This document shows positions 30,970-62,860 of a DNA stretch of 64,000 nt, piece by piece; position 1 is the first letter of the stretch; each line of letters starts with the position of its first letter. Below the pieces are notes generated by a model. The model saw nothing but the letters and a program-made list of their open reading frames with translations. It was not told the DNA's origin and did not search any database. The translations under genes and the position numbers were made by a program. The stretch is from an uncultured Clostridia bacterium (GTDB lineage Bacteria > Bacillota > Clostridia > Oscillospirales > Acutalibacteraceae): NCBI GenBank assembly GCA_946555465.1, contig CAMNST010000008.1:1-64000 (forward strand), in the 5' to 3' direction.

Positions 30970-33900
30970 TTACTTATTGGTGGTAACGGTTTTAACTGTT
31001 GACCACGCAGAGTAATATGTTTTTCCGTTCACTGTTTTATATGTACGAACACGTACATAATATCTCTTATTTGCTCCCATATAATTTCTTGTTACCGAAG
31101 AAGTTGATGTGTTTGCATAATTAAGCGTTCTTGAATTTGTAAAATTGCTGTACTGGCTGTACTGCAACTGATAACCCGTTGTCTGTACCTTCTGAAGGTT
31201 CCATTTTACGGTAAATGCCTGCGACTGAGCAGTAAGTGAACTGATTGTGGTTGATTTCGGGATAATATCAAAGGAGAGTGTTTTTGTTCCCGAATAATTG
31301 CCCATAAAGTTTACGATAATTGTGTAAGTGCCTACATTTGTTCTGCCCGGTGCATAAGTAAGCGTATAATCTGTTTTATACTTCAATGCAACACCCTGGC
31401 TGTTTTTAACTGTAACACCCGGGCCGATATCTCTGCCTGTGTAAACATAAGACGGCGCATTTACTTTAATTGTAGAAACTCTGTAAATGGTTGTTGTTGT
31501 GGAAGCCTTTTTGCTGCCGCATTCTTTACAAACATCTGTTTTCACAATTTTACCGTTGGATGATGCTGTTGCTTTTGTAACAGTTGTCTGGGTTTCGTAA
31601 CTGTGACCTTTTGGAGGCGTAATATCGCCCACATACTGATATCTGCAGTCTGCACAGGTATAGGTTGTGTAACCGCCTTCGGTACAGGTTGCTGCGGTTG
31701 GAACAATAATATAATCATGTTCAATCGGACCGGTGTAATCGCTTACATAACTGTCTCCGCATTCCATACAGGTGTATGTTGTGTATCCCTGTGATGAACA
31801 AGTAGGTTCTGTAACTTCTGTTTCATATTCATGACCTGTTGCCGAAGTGTAATCTGAAATATATCTGTATCCGCATTTTCCGCAGGTATATGTGGTGTAA
31901 CCATGTTCGGTACAGGTTGGTGCTTCTGTATTTGCGCTGAAGAAATGAGGTGTTTCATCTACATAATCATCAATATAAACATCACCGCATGACTTACAGG
32001 TATGCGTTGTGTAACCATACTGTGTACAGGTTGCTTCTGTTACAACATCTTCATAATCATGTTCAAGTTTTTCAACATAATTGTCAATAACAACTTCGCC
32101 GCACACGGTGCATGTGAACGCTGTGTAACCCTCTGTTGTGCATGTCGGTTCTGTGATAACTGCTGTAAAATTATGATCTGCCATATCGGTATAATCATCA
32201 ATGTAACTGTCATCGCAGTTTTCACATTTGAATGTTGTATAACCGATTGAGGTACATGTTGGTTCTGTTACAACTTTATCATATTTGTGAGGAAGTTTTT
32301 CCGTATAATTATCTGTTGAAACAAAACCACAGACTTTACATGTATGCGTTGTATATCCAACCGAAGTGCATGTTGCCTCTGTAACAGCATCTGTATTGTT
32401 GTGGCCCATCGGTTCTGTGAAATTGGCAATATATGTATCTTCACAAACCACACATTTATAGGTTGTGTAACCCTTTTCTGTACAGGTTGGTCTTGTTATT
32501 TCGGCATCATAGCCGTGACCTTTTGCAGAAAGAACTTTACCTTCCAAAACGATTTCGCCGCAGTTGTCACATACAACATCACCTGAATAACCTGTTTCCG
32601 TACAGGTTGGTTTGGTAGCGTTATCGGTATGAGTTGATTCGTGTATACAAGGCATTGTATATTCATCAACAACCACAATATCAAATGAACCGCTGATAAT
32701 AAATCCGTTTGCTACATAGGTAACATTAACTGTTTTGGTTCCCGCTGTTTCTGTTCCCGGCCAGTCGAATACACAGTATTCAATTTCGCAGTCAGAAACA
32801 GTAACGCCCTCTGTTGTAACTGTGAGTGTACCTGTTTCGAGTTCGTCACCGATAAGATATTCGCCTCTTGCATCTGTGATATCAAGATGAAGATTATCGC
32901 AGTACCAATAAGCGTATAATGTAATTCCGTCTGAAACAATATCATCTGCGCTTACAGGTTTTCCTGCATTTTCTGCATCATACCAGCCTGCAAATGTAAG
33001 ATTATAATTTTCATTCGGAATTGCATCGGGAACAGGCATTTCGCCGTATTTATCACCGATATTGTAACTTAATGTAAAGTTATCATTTGATAAACTTCCG
33101 CCGTTGAAATTTACTGCGCATTGATCAGGAGAAACGACATAAATATCAACACTGCCTTTTACAATATAACCGTTAGATTCAAACGCAACCATAACTGTCT
33201 TTTTGCCGGGTGTTGTCATATCGGGAACTGTTACATTGCAAATGTTTGCAGGAATAGAAGAGATGGTAAGGAAACTGATTTTCAATGTGCTTTCATCAAA
33301 TTTTTCACCAATCTGATAATGCGTTTTTGTTGTTTCAACATTTAATGGATAATCTGCCGAATACCAATAAGCATATAAAGTAATATCATCGTTTATAATG
33401 GTGTTTTCATTAACCTGAACACCTTTTGTTTTTGCATCATACCAACCGGCAAATTCTCCGTCTTCAAGAACCGGAACAGGAAGTTCGCCCAGTTTTTTGC
33501 CATATTCAACAATCTTGCTTTCGGCAGAACACTGACCGCCGTTTGCGTCTAATGTTACCGTGCGTGTTTCAACAACACGGCCGCTTATTGCATAAAGATT
33601 GATAACGGCACCATGTTCGTCAGTAAGATTATACAACCCTGCATTATCGGCATAAGCCACTTCATTGCTGCCGGGTGTTAATGACCAGCCCAAGAATTCT
33701 TCATCATCATTAACTAATCCGAGTGATTCTGCTGTTGGAATAAACGATGTATAATTGTAATAAAGTGTCATGCTTTCAACAAGATCACTTCCGTTATAAA
33801 GATTAACGATATATGTAATCGGCTGCCATACAGCATAAAGATTTACGTTTCCGCTTTCTGACGGACGTTTTGTAAGAACTTCGCCGTCCTGATATTCAAC

Positions 33901-36666
33901 AGTTGTTGCCTTGTAATCTGTTGACCAGCCGGCAAAGACATAACCGGGCTTTGAAAGGTTAAGTTTTTTAGCCGTTGTAAGTGAATTGCTGCCCGAAACA
34001 AGATATTCGGAACTGCCAACAACAACGCCGTTGTCAACATAGAAAATTGTGCTGCTGTTTTTCTCAAATACAGCGTAAAGACCTACTGCACCGCCTGATG
34101 ATGAAAGATCGGTAATCTTCTGTCCGTCAGTATACTGGATGATACCCGAGTTACAGGTTTTTGACCAACCTGCAAAGTGATAACCCGGTTTGTAGTTGAG
34201 AATACCAAGTTCTTCGGCAGTTTTCAACGGACTTGCAACGCCGAAAACATGTGTTGATGAATCTATGGATTTAAGATTTCCGGGTACACCAACGTAGTAA
34301 TAAACTTTATATGATGTTCCTGTATAATGCGCATAGAGCGTATGGTCTGAAGTTTTATCTACGATTGTATTTGCATCAACCTTCACTCCGCCGACTTTCT
34401 GCGTGTACCAGCCTTCAAAATTTGCTCCTGTGTGATTTGCATAAGGCAGATTGCCGTATTTATAACCATATGCAACCTGCATTGAAGGAAGATCACTTAT
34501 ACCGCCGTTTGCATCAAACTTAACGGTACAGCCTGCTTTGCTTTCAATGCCAACAACAACAGAACCTGACTGAACACTGCTCTTTGATTTAACGCCGAGA
34601 TAATACTGTGTTCCGGCAGTCATTTTGCACACAACTGTAAAATTGGTGCCCTCTGACAAACCGTTGTCTTTGGCAATAACTTTCATACTTTCATCACAGA
34701 TGAAACCTTCATTGCCTATTCTGCCTGATGAAGAGAAAACATATGTGCCTGTTTCTGACGGAACAAATGAATAATATTGAATACTTCCGTCTTTATCTAA
34801 ATTTACGGTTTCTCTGGTTCCGGCAGTAATGGAAGGATAAGCCTGCCATACAGCATATAATGCCACGGTTCCTTTTTCGGCAAGATTAATAACTTTTTCT
34901 CCGGCAAGATAATCGGGACTTGATGCTCCGTTTGTTCTCGACCAGCCTAAAAAGACGTAACCGTTCTTTGTAATTTCAGATTTAACAATATGTTCTTTGT
35001 CATAAGTTGCGGTGTATGTGCTGAGTTTTGTACTGCCGTTATAATATTCAACATTATACTTATTTGCAGTCCACTGCGCAATAAGAGTATGGTTTTCGGT
35101 TACTCTTACCCTTGAAGATGAAGTTATTACTGTACCGTCAAGAGTCCATTCTGCCGAGTAGCCTGTTTTTGAAGGAACAGGAAGAGTGCCGTATGTTGAA
35201 GTAAAATAAACAATTTTGCTGCTTGTATCACAGACACCGCCGTTTGCATCAAATGTAACATTAACGGGAGCACCGGTCCAGTGCGCATAAAGCGTCTGCT
35301 CAACTGCAACTCTTACGATAGAATCAGCAGTAATTTTTGTTCCTCCGCTTTCTGCTGTGTACCAGCCTGCAAATGTATAACCGTTTCGCTGAGGAACAGG
35401 AAGTTCTCCGTAAGGTTCGTTATACGTTACAGTTGCGGTTGTTGTATCAATCGTTCCGCCATTAGGGTCTAAATTCAAAGTAATCTGACCTGCATTTACG
35501 TTTACGGCTATATTTTTTTCTCTGCAGTATTCTTCTATAGCAGAGCCCGCCTCTGTAAATACAACAAGGCTGCTTGTTTTGCATTTTTCAAAAATGCCTG
35601 TACCGATATTCGTAACAGACTTCGGAATATAAATTGTTTTTAATCCTTTGCATGCCGTGAAAGCATATTCGCCTATTGATGTAACCGAATCAGGAATTAT
35701 AATATCCGTTAAATCCTGACAGTTGTTAAAAGCATCATTGCCTATTGAAGTAACGCCGTTTTCGATTGTTATACTTGTTAAAGAACTGTACCAGAATGCA
35801 CAATCTTCAATAACCTTTACAGTTGAAGGAATAACAATTTCATCAACATATAGACAATCGTCAAATGCAGCGAATCCGATGGTTTCAACGGTTTCGGGAA
35901 TCACAAATCTGCCTTCCTTTGCATCAGGATACTGAATGAGTGTTTTCATATCCTTGCTGTAAAGAACGCCGTAAACAGAAGCATAATTCTGATTGCCCTC
36001 TGCCACATAGATATTCTGCATTGAAGTGCATTCGTAAAATGCATCTTCGCTCAGTGTTTCCACAGATGCGGGAATGGTAAATGTTTCAAGAGTGCCGCAC
36101 TGATAAAATGCACTTTCCCCGATTTCTCTGCATTTTGAACCATCCTCAAAACGGAGTGACTCAAGATAAGTTGCTCCTGCAAACGCTTCGTAAGAGATGG
36201 TTTCCACATTTGCCGGAATAACAACTTCAAAGAGCCATGTATTTGAAAACGCATTATCTTTAATAATGGTTAACTGCTGCGGCAAATCAATTTCTTCAAG
36301 AGATTCACAATAATCAAAAGCATGTTTTCCTATTGAAGTTACCGTGTCAGCCAGTTGAACATCATAGATATAACTGCTTTTGAAAAATGCGTAATCACCT
36401 ATTGAGGTAACCCCGTTTTCAACAATAACTGTTTCAATGTCGCCCGAAAAAGCATTCCACGGGGCACCTGTTTTTGCACTATAATTATCCATCTCACCAT
36501 CACCGCTTATGGTGAGCGTATAATTATCCGCATTGTAATTCCACGAAAGAGAATCACCGCAGGTTCCATCCGCGGGAATTTCATTCGCGACCGCCGTTAA
36601 GTTTAATCCTGTTGTCATACTGAGAAGCATTGCAACAGAGAGCAATAAACTTAAAACCCTTTTCAT
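30970..36666 (-). CDS. Giant secreted LRR / InlB-repeat / Cys-repeat protein
   Basis: A 1,898-residue exported protein. Signal peptide: residues 1-28 (KRVLSLLLSVAMLLSM...AVANE). Residues about 40-390 are BspA-type leucine-rich repeats (TSIGxxAFxxC units). Residues about 395-1335 hold eight or nine InlB B-like/Listeria-Bacteroides repeats (FDANGG..YGxLPVPxxxGYxFAGWYT). Residues about 1340-1720 hold nine near-regular units of the type TEPTCTxxGYTTYTCxxCGxxYI plus a degenerate tenth. Then a bacterial Ig/MBG-like domain (about 1725-1805) and a fibronectin III domain (about 1809-1898). No sorting motif or membrane tail is present, so retention must be non-covalent or the protein is released. Likely an adhesin or ligand-binding surface protein. 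Confidence 0.88.
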   Translation of the reverse strand: MKRVLSLLLSVAMLLSMTTGLNLTAVANEIPADGTCGDSLSWNYNADNYTLTISGDGEMDNYSAKTGAPWNAFSGDIETVIVENGVTSIGDYAFFKSSYIYDVQLADTVTSIGKHAFDYCESLEEIDLPQQLTIIKDNAFSNTWLFEVVIPANVETISYEAFAGATYLESLRFEDGSKCREIGESAFYQCGTLETFTIPASVETLSEDAFYECTSMQNIYVAEGNQNYASVYGVLYSKDMKTLIQYPDAKEGRFVIPETVETIGFAAFDDCLYVDEIVIPSTVKVIEDCAFWYSSLTSITIENGVTSIGNDAFNNCQDLTDIIIPDSVTSIGEYAFTACKGLKTIYIPKSVTNIGTGIFEKCKTSSLVVFTEAGSAIEEYCREKNIAVNVNAGQITLNLDPNGGTIDTTTATVTYNEPYGELPVPQRNGYTFAGWYTAESGGTKITADSIVRVAVEQTLYAHWTGAPVNVTFDANGGVCDTSSKIVYFTSTYGTLPVPSKTGYSAEWTLDGTVITSSSRVRVTENHTLIAQWTANKYNVEYYNGSTKLSTYTATYDKEHIVKSEITKNGYVFLGWSRTNGASSPDYLAGEKVINLAEKGTVALYAVWQAYPSITAGTRETVNLDKDGSIQYYSFVPSETGTYVFSSSGRIGNEGFICDESMKVIAKDNGLSEGTNFTVVCKMTAGTQYYLGVKSKSSVQSGSVVVGIESKAGCTVKFDANGGISDLPSMQVAYGYKYGNLPYANHTGANFEGWYTQKVGGVKVDANTIVDKTSDHTLYAHYTGTSYKVYYYVGVPGNLKSIDSSTHVFGVASPLKTAEELGILNYKPGYHFAGWSKTCNSGIIQYTDGQKITDLSSSGGAVGLYAVFEKNSSTIFYVDNGVVVGSSEYLVSGSNSLTTAKKLNLSKPGYVFAGWSTDYKATTVEYQDGEVLTKRPSESGNVNLYAVWQPITYIVNLYNGSDLVESMTLYYNYTSFIPTAESLGLVNDDEEFLGWSLTPGSNEVAYADNAGLYNLTDEHGAVINLYAISGRVVETRTVTLDANGGQCSAESKIVEYGKKLGELPVPVLEDGEFAGWYDAKTKGVQVNENTIINDDITLYAYWYSADYPLNVETTKTHYQIGEKFDESTLKISFLTISSIPANICNVTVPDMTTPGKKTVMVAFESNGYIVKGSVDIYVVSPDQCAVNFNGGSLSNDNFTLSYNIGDKYGEMPVPDAIPNENYNLTFAGWYDAENAGKPVSADDIVSDGITLYAYWYCDNLHLDITDARGEYLIGDELETGTLTVTTEGVTVSDCEIEYCVFDWPGTETAGTKTVNVTYVANGFIISGSFDIVVVDEYTMPCIHESTHTDNATKPTCTETGYSGDVVCDNCGEIVLEGKVLSAKGHGYDAEITRPTCTEKGYTTYKCVVCEDTYIANFTEPMGHNNTDAVTEATCTSVGYTTHTCKVCGFVSTDNYTEKLPHKYDKVVTEPTCTSIGYTTFKCENCDDSYIDDYTDMADHNFTAVITEPTCTTEGYTAFTCTVCGEVVIDNYVEKLEHDYEDVVTEATCTQYGYTTHTCKSCGDVYIDDYVDETPHFFSANTEAPTCTEHGYTTYTCGKCGYRYISDYTSATGHEYETEVTEPTCSSQGYTTYTCMECGDSYVSDYTGPIEHDYIIVPTAATCTEGGYTTYTCADCRYQYVGDITPPKGHSYETQTTVTKATASSNGKIVKTDVCKECGSKKASTTTTIYRVSTIKVNAPSYVYTGRDIGPGVTVKNSQGVALKYKTDYTLTYAPGRTNVGTYTIIVNFMGNYSGTKTLSFDIIPKSTTISSLTAQSQAFTVKWNLQKVQTTGYQLQYSQYSNFTNSRTLNYANTSTSSVTRNYMGANKRYYVRVRTYKTVNGKTYYSAWSTVKTVTTNK
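31520..32650 (-). repeat. Coding tandem repeats: Cys-rich units in the giant protein
   Basis: Nine recognisable units of about 36-38 codons, each with one isolated Cys in PTCT/ATCT followed by a CxxC pair about 10 residues later and a His at the unit boundary, then a tenth without the first Cys. The spacing would allow disulfides or zinc binding. The DNA of the units is diverged, so this is an old amplification under protein-level selection, not a recent duplication. Confidence 0.75.
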
Positions 36667-60561: not shown

Positions 60562-60589
60562 TTGACATTTTCATGATTAATGATATACT
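60562..60589 (+). promoter_or_regulatory. Promoter of the cobalamin-riboswitch operon
   Basis: TTGACA (60562-60567), a 16-nt spacer and TATACT (60584-60589) with an upstream TGA (extended -10). The -35 box starts one base after the hpt stop codon. Confidence 0.7.
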
Positions 60590-60605
60590 TTAATAAATTA
60601 ATATT

Positions 60606-60772
60606 ACTCACGGTTTTTATAATTGGTTTTATAAAATTAAAAGGGAATCAGGTGTGAATCCTGAGCAACCGCCATTACCGTATCTGATGAAGCAGTTACA
60701 AATACCATTGGGAAACTGAGAAGGTGTAACTGCACGCATTATGCTATATCACAAGTCGGGAGACCTGCCGTA
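60606..60772 (+). promoter_or_regulatory. Cobalamin (B12) riboswitch
   Basis: The aptamer shows the conserved cobalamin core in order: AAAGGGAATCAGGTGTGAATCCTGAGC (60640-60666, seen in two parts AAGGGAATCAGGTG and AATCCTGAGC), the B12-box-like CCATTGGGAAACTGAGAAGG (60705-60724) and AAGTCGGGAGACCTGCC (60753-60769). ACGG at 60610-60613 can close the domain with CCGT at 60768-60771. It is followed by an overlapping antiterminator/terminator platform, so the operon should be switched off when the ligand is abundant. Confidence 0.93.
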
Positions 60773-60791
60773 AAAATAAATTCAGTTTTCG

Positions 60792-60879
60792 GGCAAGGGG
60801 AAAACAACGGATTTATACCAAGGAATTATTGCGTTTAAATCTATCCCTCCTGCCGGTGACAGGGGGGATTTTTATTTTT
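60792..60879 (+). terminator. Riboswitch expression platform: terminator with competing antiterminator
   Basis: ATCCCTCCTG (60843-60852) pairs with CAGGGGGGAT (60860-60869) to give a 10-bp terminator stem followed by a U-rich run. Upstream, GGCAAGGGG (60792-60800) can instead pair with CCTCCTGCC (60846-60854; one mismatch), which excludes the terminator. The terminator's 3' arm is also the only good ribosome site for the next gene, so the hairpin may control translation too. Confidence 0.75.
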
Positions 60880-61617
60880 AAAAAAGCGAGCGCAGTATTA
60901 CTCTGCGTTTTTATGTGCATTTCTTTTTTCGGCTGCAGTGCCGATAAAAAAACAGAAACAGGTGCAAACAACAGTACCGTATCAAATTCAGCCGCTGCCT
61001 CGTCTGTTTCAGAATCAGTAACAGAAAAAGCAGACGCGAAAAGCACGGTTTCACAAAATGCGGATGAAAACAAAAACCATTCATCGGGTGCAAATTCGCA
61101 AAATTCAAAAAGCACAAGCGGCGCAAACAGAAATAACGAAAACCGCACCACTGAAAAAGAAAACCGCACACAAAACACAACTGCTGCCAAAACAACAAAA
61201 GCACCTTCAAAAACAACCACAAAAAAAGTTGCAACAACTTCTTCAAAAATTTCATGCACAGTGACAATAGAATGCAAATCTATTCTTAATAATATGGACA
61301 ATTTAAAAGAAGGCCACGAGGATTATGTTCCTGATGACGGTGTTATGCTCAGCAATTATTCCGTTACTGTTGAAAACGGTGATTCGGTTTATGATGCTGT
61401 TAAATCCGCATGCAGCAATAATGCAATTAACATCAATTCTCAGTCAAGTTCTTACGGCGTTTATATTGTTGGTTTTAATAACATAGATGAAAAAGACTGC
61501 GGAAAAGAAAGCGGCTGGAAATACAAGGTCAACGGTAAATATCCATCAAAGAGTTGCAATAAATATACGGTTTCAAACGGTGATAACATTGTGTTTACAT
61601 ACACATGTTCATATTAA
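60829..61617 (+). CDS. DUF4430 (transcobalamin beta-domain-like) lipoprotein
   Basis: An exported protein under the cobalamin riboswitch. A Lys-Lys hydrophobic signal peptide ends in the lipobox FFGC, then come about 100 Ser/Thr/Asn/Lys-rich linker residues and a C-terminal domain of about 120 residues with the DUF4430 pattern ENGDSVYDAVK...GWKYKVNGKYPSKSCNKYTVSNGDNIVFTYTC. This domain is related to the C-terminal beta-domain of animal transcobalamin/intrinsic factor, which contacts B12. Start uncertain: a TTG at 60829 (AAGGA 4 nt before) lies upstream of the terminator stem; an ATT at 60874, 6 nt after GGGGGG, would give a normal short signal peptide. Confidence 0.8.
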   Translation: MRLNLSLLPVTGGIFIFKKASAVLLCVFMCISFFGCSADKKTETGANNSTVSNSAAASSVSESVTEKADAKSTVSQNADENKNHSSGANSQNSKSTSGANRNNENRTTEKENRTQNTTAAKTTKAPSKTTTKKVATTSSKISCTVTIECKSILNNMDNLKEGHEDYVPDDGVMLSNYSVTVENGDSVYDAVKSACSNNAININSQSSSYGVYIVGFNNIDEKDCGKESGWKYKVNGKYPSKSCNKYTVSNGDNIVFTYTCSY

Positions 61618-61646
61618 ACAAAATTTTCATACAGGAGGTTCATATT

Positions 61647-62798
61647 ATGAAAAAAGTATTATCATTTTTATTTGCAATTTGCCTTATGCTCAGTATAAGC
61701 ACAACTGCATTTGCAAGTGAAACCAAAAAAAGCGAAAAGGTTGCGGCACAGAGCGAGGCGGCAGCAAACTATCTTACCGAAGGCAGAGCGTCTTATACCG
61801 TTGAATCGGCTGTTGATTACCTGAATCTTACAAACGCAGGCAACGATATGTCAAAATTTGACGAAGGCTTTTTTAACAGCGTTAAAGCAAATCTTGACGC
61901 CAACGGCGGAAAACTTATTGTTTACGGAAGCGAAAGCATAACATCATATGCGGCTGTAATTCAGATTCTTTACGCACTTGATATGGATCCGGAAAACTTT
62001 TACGGCTACAACTTAAATGCTGCATTCACCGCAATGGATCCGACTGTTTCTTTAAGCAACCCTTACTATTACAAAGTTGTTATTCCCGCAACAACCTTAA
62101 TTGATAATGCAGAAGATTTCGGCAAAAAACTCTGTGATAATTTTATTGAAAATTATTACAAAATGGGCAGCGGTATGGATTACTACGGTTTCGCCTGCGA
62201 TAATACGGCAAACTTCATTGCTGCTGTTTCTTCTTATGCAGATGATTATAGCGATATTTTAAAGGATGCATTTACAATTCTTGAAAGTTACAAGGTTGAC
62301 GGCGGTTACTGCTACAATCCTGAATACGGCAGCGAACCAAACTGCAATTCAACCGCACTTGCCCTTATGGCTTACAGTGAATATGTTATCAATGCTGACG
62401 ACGGCGAAAAATATCTTGAAAAAACACATCAAATTTATGCTAATCTGTGCACTTTTGAAAATCCGAATAAAACAGGTGTTTTCACATATGACGGAGAAGA
62501 CAGTGCGCTTTCCACAAGCGATGCCCTTTGGGGACTTAATTCATATTTCCGGGTTGCATTGGTGCAGGATATAATTGATGATGACAGCAAAGATGACAAT
62601 AATAACAGCAGCGAAAGCACAACTTCTGCCGCTGCAACAACTAAGCCTGCCCAAAGTGCAAAAACACAGACAACAAAGAAAACAAATACATCAAAAAAGT
62701 CACCTGCAACAGGTATTAACGAAACAGGTGTTTGTGTTACAATTTCTCTTCTCGCAGCAGCAAGTGCAACTGCATTATTAAAGAAAAAAAGTAAGTAA
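61647..62798 (+). CDS. Sortase-anchored alpha/alpha-toroid (prenyltransferase-like) protein
   Basis: A 383-residue cell-wall protein, 29 nt after the DUF4430 gene and thus under the same riboswitch. Signal peptide: residues 1-23 (KKVLSFLFAICLMLS..AFA). The core (about 30-315) is all-helical with repeats such as GSESITSYAAVIQILYALDMDP, CDNTANFIAAVSSYADDY, DGGYCYNPEYGSEPNCNSTALALMAYSEY and STSDALWGLNSYFR: the alpha6/alpha6 toroid pattern shared by terpene cyclases, prenyltransferases and the N-terminal domain of intrinsic factor. A Thr/Ala-rich linker leads to SPATG (residues 352-356), a hydrophobic segment and a KKKSK tail. The ATG follows AGGAGG by 8 nt. Confidence 0.85.
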   Translation: MKKVLSFLFAICLMLSISTTAFASETKKSEKVAAQSEAAANYLTEGRASYTVESAVDYLNLTNAGNDMSKFDEGFFNSVKANLDANGGKLIVYGSESITSYAAVIQILYALDMDPENFYGYNLNAAFTAMDPTVSLSNPYYYKVVIPATTLIDNAEDFGKKLCDNFIENYYKMGSGMDYYGFACDNTANFIAAVSSYADDYSDILKDAFTILESYKVDGGYCYNPEYGSEPNCNSTALALMAYSEYVINADDGEKYLEKTHQIYANLCTFENPNKTGVFTYDGEDSALSTSDALWGLNSYFRVALVQDIIDDDSKDDNNNSSESTTSAAATTKPAQSAKTQTTKKTNTSKKSPATGINETGVCVTISLLAAASATALLKKKSK

Positions 62799-62828
62799 GC
62801 AATAATTATACTGATTATATAAAAGGAT

Positions 62829-62860
62829 AACGGCGTACAGAGTTTTCTGTACGCCGTTTG
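62829..62860. terminator. Intrinsic terminator between converging genes
   Basis: CGGCGTACAGA and TCTGTACGCCG pair around GTTT (62831-62856). It ends the cobalamin-regulated operon and probably rsmE from the other side. Confidence 0.8.

Follow-up and report, generated by a model that had tools for sequence, protein, structure and literature searches.

A transcobalamin-type SLBB domain was defined in low-GC Gram-positive bacteria by Burroughs et al. (2007; PMC1796856). The main text of that paper describes its Gram-positive anchors and its fusions with toroids and beta-propellers, notes that CbiO/CbiQ-like genes lie nearby and that genes for B12 synthesis are missing, predicts a role in B12 scavenging and proposes a transfer of the domain to animals. 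For the membrane step, a CbrT-type energy-coupling factor (ECF) cobalamin transporter of Lactobacillus delbrueckii is mentioned in PMC6977713, and BtuG and BtuH are presented in PMC6143338 and PMC8941943, respectively, as characterised surface B12 binders of Bacteroides. B12 capture outside the membrane by Gram-positive gut bacteria without BtuFCD is poorly described. Here we analyse a 64,000-nucleotide stretch of an uncultured Clostridia bacterium of the family Acutalibacteraceae (GenBank assembly GCA_946555465.1, contig CAMNST010000008.1, positions 1 to 64,000; hereafter the window), in which a cobalamin riboswitch precedes two genes for exported-type proteins: a DUF4430 protein (gene 1) and an alpha/alpha-toroid protein (gene 2). 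We propose, with a probability of about 0.72, that the two products form a two-part cell-surface system which captures cobamides, by holding them jointly or by relay, and feeds them to ECF import.

The riboswitch and the two genes

The features of the locus are as follows.

60562..60589, forward strand: promoter-like −35 and −10 boxes (TTGACA, 16 nt, TATACT), with 11 of 12 consensus positions matching
60594..60786, forward strand: cobalamin riboswitch aptamer, RF00174, 92.2 bits against a gathering score of 31.5
60829..61617, forward strand: gene 1, an exported DUF4430 protein, probably a lipoprotein, starting at TTG 60829 or ATT 60874
60843..60869, forward strand: terminator-like hairpin of 10 pairs followed by a T-run, the likely expression platform
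61246..61614, forward strand: transcobalamin-type beta-grasp domain of gene 1 (DUF4430/PF14478), recognised by Pfam, model and structure matches
61647..62798, forward strand: gene 2, an exported alpha/alpha-toroid surface protein of 383 aa, recognised by open reading frame, relatives and model
61725..62630, forward strand: toroid domain as modelled (residues 27-328)
62700..62795, forward strand: cell-wall sorting-type tail of gene 2 (SPATG, a hydrophobic stretch and a basic KKKSK end), visible directly
62829..62858, forward strand: terminator-like hairpin 3' of gene 2; the opposite strand also scores

The covariance model RF00174 matches the riboswitch over its full length (model positions 1-189 of 189, E 1.4e-21), and this is its single match at E<=0.001 in the bacterium's own genome (2.23 Mb, 97% complete). 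The initial annotation had placed a cobalamin riboswitch ahead of two exported-type genes, and both the aptamer and the export features of the two products bear this out. Given the promoter, the riboswitch and the end hairpin, 60562-62857 is plausibly one transcription unit with both genes co-directional; the promoter-like element is a consensus match only, the same criterion yielding 9 sites in the 64-kb stretch versus 8.3 expected in shuffles. The 3' arm of the hairpin at 60843-60869 contains a Shine-Dalgarno-like AGGGGGG, and inspection by eye revealed a comparable hairpin with a purine-rich 3' arm just 5' of the start in five of six relatives, L094 being the one without it.

Association of the riboswitch with DUF4430 and toroid genes

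The initial annotation suggested looking for the two genes together behind cobalamin riboswitches in other Clostridia. One peptide-pattern scan of the genome collection gave a sample of 23 toroid loci, one of them from Eubacterium coprostanoligenes ATCC 51222. In 18 of these loci the toroid has a cobalamin riboswitch upstream (in L093 barely above threshold), and in 19 it adjoins a DUF4430 gene (partial in L097). Among the five loci without a riboswitch, the toroid stands at a contig edge in L097, L104, L109 and L114, and the flanks are intact in L103; DUF4430 is not adjacent in L098 and L099, where the flanks are intact, and in L104 and L114, which end at contig edges.

The association extends to a sample of 300 same-family genomes, in which DUF4430 was detected in 228, cobalamin riboswitches in 194 and matches to the window toroid in 17, some of them at the signal peptide or tail only. 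Pairs were counted between the best 150 riboswitches and the best 150 DUF4430 domains among the matches listed: on the same strand, DUF4430 follows 50 of these 150 riboswitches within 8 kb and precedes none of them, and it lies near two on the opposite strand. Random placement gives an expectation of 0.16 such pairs, with a maximum of 4 in 2000 runs.

We compared 40 neighbourhoods, comprising 39 of the 50 riboswitch–DUF4430 pairs and L071, which combines a riboswitch with a toroid; the counts are conditional, since the loci were picked for a riboswitch with DUF4430 or with a toroid. DUF4430 is present in at least 36 of them (the picker of open reading frames dropped some DUF4430 genes), EcfT in 20, a downstream EcfA in 21 and an S component in 21, while L052 has a further EcfA match located upstream. 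The partner is a toroid in 19 loci, a PQQ (pyrroloquinoline quinone)-type beta-propeller in 13 (L054, L056, L059, L070, L074-L077, L082 and L085-L088; confirmed by Pfam in 9), neither in 8 and both in none. In L054, L056 and L059 the propeller is fused to DUF4430; we had considered these three as toroid–DUF4430 fusions and rejected this, as Pfam gives a beta-propeller. Separately, L058 and L060 display a minimal form with neither toroid nor propeller, in which the riboswitch is followed by a DUF4430 protein about 155 aa long, with a hydrophobic stretch at its N-terminus, and then by a single ECF S component. Among the riboswitch-linked toroid proteins, that of L089 is very long (994 aa), and those of L078 and L079 carry two tandem toroid domains.

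The replacement of the toroid by a propeller in 13 of the 40 loci, and the 8 loci with neither, would also suit a different explanation, in which the DUF4430 lipoprotein is the sole cobamide binder and the toroid, merely co-regulated, is an enzyme or an adhesin with glycans or the cobamide carriers of other organisms as its targets. The best structural matches of the gene 2 toroid among those listed, which are GH88/GH105 and epimerase-type enzymes, point the same way. Nevertheless, we regard this explanation as unlikely, for two observations argue against it. The riboswitch directly precedes the toroid in 10 loci: in 8 of the 9 loci (out of 19 with both genes) where the DUF4430 gene is divergent, and in L098 and L099, where no DUF4430 gene is adjacent. 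Moreover, the window toroid family is homologous to the toroids of the riboswitch-linked ECF operons (hhalign probability 99, E 7e-18).

Toroid and DUF4430 form one chain in four relatives that are more distant (L013, L015, L016 and L020), with hydrophobic, membrane-like stretches between them in all three of the sequences inspected (L013, L016 and L020); none of the six more distant toroid loci, these four fusions included, has a cobalamin riboswitch match at E<=0.1. The fusions bear on how the two proteins of the window might share a ligand. One version of the proposed capture system is a relay, in which the wall toroid would catch the cobamide first and hand it on, so that only the DUF4430 lipoprotein would present it to the S component and the two would at no time hold it jointly. 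The staphylococcal Isd haem relay would be a parallel. Such a relay is consistent with the different anchoring signals of the two proteins, with their separate genes, divergent in the 9 loci mentioned, with the small DUF4430 proteins that in L058 and L060 stand directly beside an S component with no toroid, and with the isolated beta domain of human transcobalamin, solved with cyanocobalamin (entry 5np4). Single chains of toroid and DUF4430, both in the four relatives and among the bacterial proteins described in the main text of PMC1796856, speak against it and therefore favour joint action over relay. We treat the relay as the main, though tentative, alternative within the capture system, and joint holding, in which the toroid and the beta-grasp domain would grip the cobamide together by analogy with the animal carriers, as a possible reading that is likewise short of even odds.

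The DUF4430 protein

The Pfam profile PF14478 matches gene 1 with E 9.1e-18 and 64.9 bits, against a curated cut-off of 23.8, and this is its sole match in the own genome. The best structural matches of the modelled domain are the beta domains of transcobalamin, intrinsic factor and haptocorrin, which supports the relation of DUF4430 to the beta-domain of the animal B12 carriers stated in the initial annotation. In the model, strands 63-68 and 71-77 come after helix 48-58, so that it contains the extra beta-hairpin after the helix which the main text of PMC1796856 gives as a feature of the clade. An alignment of 19 DUF4430 sequences (the window and 18 relatives, with L097, L098, L099, L104 and L114 left out) was inspected for a conserved hydrophobic or aromatic hairpin residue that could contact the ligand. 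Tyr 73 is invariant, where intrinsic factor has Val at the aligned position; the Trp of intrinsic factor aligns with Tyr or Phe in the 10 of the 19 sequences that retain the hairpin tip. A search of the whole protein against PDB sequences gave no match at E<=1.

Two properties of gene 1 make its reading as an expressed lipoprotein less secure. It has no ATG, GTG or TTG at the position where its relatives start, and most relatives inspected have ATG or TTG there; the in-frame TTG 60829 precedes the terminator hairpin and ATT 60874 comes after it, so the interval 60829-60885 may hold an ATT start, an upstream TTG start or a sequence error, each of them possible. In addition, the hydrophobic N-terminus ends in FFGC, which by eye is a non-canonical lipobox. 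The corresponding leaders of six relatives end in SLFGC, FVGC, GGC, CAC, CSC and FTGC, with non-canonical residues before the Gly. Judging by these sequence features, the product is probably a lipoprotein, and about 100 of its residues can be recognised by eye as a low-complexity stalk.

The toroid protein

The open reading frame of gene 2 is listed as 61605-62798, and we took ATG 61647 as its start. Modelling with AlphaFold2 on 23 sequences (the window and 22 relatives; L097, which has no toroid in the set of open reading frames, was left out) predicted residues 27-328 with confidence as an all-helical toroid, with a predicted local distance difference test score (pLDDT) of 95.5 and low confidence for the last ~15 modelled residues. 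At the mouth of the modelled toroid, D159, N206, S209, T210, T264 and D266 (model numbering) are conserved. The closest solved structures among the matches listed for the toroid are (alpha/alpha)-toroid enzymes (GH88/GH105 glycoside hydrolases and epimerase-type enzymes) and terpene cyclases. Hence the alpha/alpha toroid of the initial annotation is supported by both the model and the structure matches; none of the searches that follow points specifically to an intrinsic-factor-like toroid. Gene 2 has no match to PF01122 (Cobalamin_bind) at E<=1, with most matches above 0.1 lost to the HMMER filters, and the one match among 17 related toroids (E 0.059) is not counted as support. The toroid profile found no PDB sequence at E<=1; the profile of related toroids found 43, including squalene cyclases, prenyltransferases and alpha-2-macroglobulins, with no B12 carrier among them. 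Intrinsic factor and transcobalamin are not among the best 50 structural matches listed for the toroid by Foldseek or VIA, which does not exclude a likeness. No Pfam family matched gene 2 below E 0.1, the one SIT match at 0.1 being at chance level.

The sorting-type tail has no Pfam anchor match. Among the 22 toroid relatives with a listed tail, 16 carry an [ST]PxTG motif there; the remaining six end in SPATS (one) or otherwise (five). A possible anchoring enzyme is encoded in the window itself, by one of the three sortase matches of the genome:

52675..53511, forward strand: sortase gene (PF04203)

Corrinoid use by the bacterium

The own genome contains one B12-binding domain match, in a MetH-like protein with an activation-domain protein adjacent, while FecCD/BtuC, CbiC and CobS are all without a match at E<=0.001; the bacterium is apparently unable to make vitamin B12. 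At a separate locus on contig C7, L119 3801-7277 encodes a CobA-type corrinoid adenosyltransferase directly followed by EcfT (just under the CbiQ cut-off, 24.5 versus 25), a two-ATPase EcfA and an S component, and is likely a locus for B12 import and activation. This S component has 43-44% identity with the riboswitch-linked S components of L065, L078 and L087 and 24-39% with the others compared, and the context of these relatives suggests that it may be specific for cobamides. No riboswitch was matched at the ECF and MetH loci of this genome, where one unrelated sub-threshold match was seen. The riboswitch, the transporter and the genome context point to corrinoid scavenging, the role that the initial annotation had supposed.

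The pair might instead capture, under its B12 riboswitch, a ligand that is not a complete cobamide: cobalt, for example, or an incomplete corrinoid. According to PMC2667541, predicted operons for cobalt uptake stand behind B12 riboswitches in some bacteria as well, and the solved relative 3u7z is labelled a putative metal-binding protein. The genome content is against it: MetH and the CobA-type adenosyltransferase are present, and neither CbiC nor CobS was matched, therefore the bacterium would gain little B12 from cobalt or cobinamide. We judge this explanation improbable.

Elsewhere in the window, 30970-36666 encodes a large protein of 1898 aa that contains leucine-rich repeats of the BspA type as well as Listeria-Bacteroides repeats.

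Proposed mechanism

The riboswitch, the export-type features, the folds, the gene association, the ECF–adenosyltransferase locus and MetH are computed results, and we suggest the following scheme for them. At low intracellular cobamide the riboswitch would permit transcription, and both proteins would be made and exported. The gene 1 product would become a membrane lipoprotein whose stalk bears the beta-grasp domain, and the gene 2 product would be a toroid linked to the cell wall by sortase. The cobamide would then be handled between the toroid and the beta-grasp domain, in the simplest case held as by the two halves of intrinsic factor, and handed to the ECF importer (EcfT, EcfA and S component), whose genes lie at the other locus. 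After adenosylation where needed, it would be used by the cobalamin-dependent methionine synthase MetH. The ligand binding, the contact of the two proteins and the hand-off are what we infer in this scheme. Taken as a whole, the interpretation given in the initial annotation is partly supported.

A broader reading, which we offer as conceivable at somewhat less than even chances, is that many Clostridia possess a bipartite intrinsic factor, consisting of a riboswitch-controlled, transcobalamin-type lipoprotein with an interchangeable partner that covers the cobamide, a toroid as in animals or a propeller as in BtuG, and feeding ECF import, and that the animal carriers descend from such bacterial pairs after fusion. 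The window would then represent its minimal, unfused, wall-plus-membrane form.

Comparison with known systems

The pair is a variant of a kind that sequence analysis had already predicted, and it constitutes no new category. With the proteins in the main text of PMC1796856 it shares the domain type, the toroid and propeller partners, the Gram-positive anchors, the CbiQ/CbiO-like neighbours and the predicted B12 scavenging; the difference is that toroid–SLBB fusions are described there, whereas here the toroid is a separate protein. That main text does not mention riboswitches; riboswitch linkage represents independent evidence for the 2007 prediction, and a concrete pair is now named. Our analysis adds the split toroid protein, the counts of riboswitch association, the finding that toroid and propeller replace each other, and a connection with a specific type of ECF S component and with a genome without CbiC, CobS and BtuC-type matches. 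The initial annotation knew of no comparable Gram-positive system, which holds at most for characterised ones, as the kind had been predicted in 2007: within the open-access literature, subscription papers and preprints not being covered, we found no experimental study of a Gram-positive DUF4430–toroid pair.

As with the CbrT-type transporter, ECF import is the likely membrane step here, and the own genome has an EcfT–EcfA–S locus; the difference is that the transporter genes lie at a separate locus and that the B12 specificity of the S component is deduced from the context of its relatives. BtuG and BtuH are likewise surface lipoproteins for B12 capture from riboswitch-linked loci, and propellers, a fold that BtuG also has, are the alternative partners in relatives of our pair. 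Both, however, belong to Gram-negative bacteria; BtuG acts with BtuB and is, in the account of PMC6143338, reported from Bacteroidetes only, and the available text of the BtuH paper (PMC8941943) mentions neither DUF4430 nor transcobalamin.

Intrinsic factor, transcobalamin and haptocorrin share with the window pair the beta-grasp structural type, the alpha/alpha-toroid partner, the extracellular location and the B12 context. They differ in being one secreted chain, compared with two surface-anchored proteins here, of which gene 2 has no PF01122 match, and cobalamin binding by the window pair is putative. Joint binding of cobamides by the pair would mean that two separate bacterial proteins can work by the two-domain logic of human intrinsic factor, and the proposal that the animal B12 carriers came from bacteria could then be tested.
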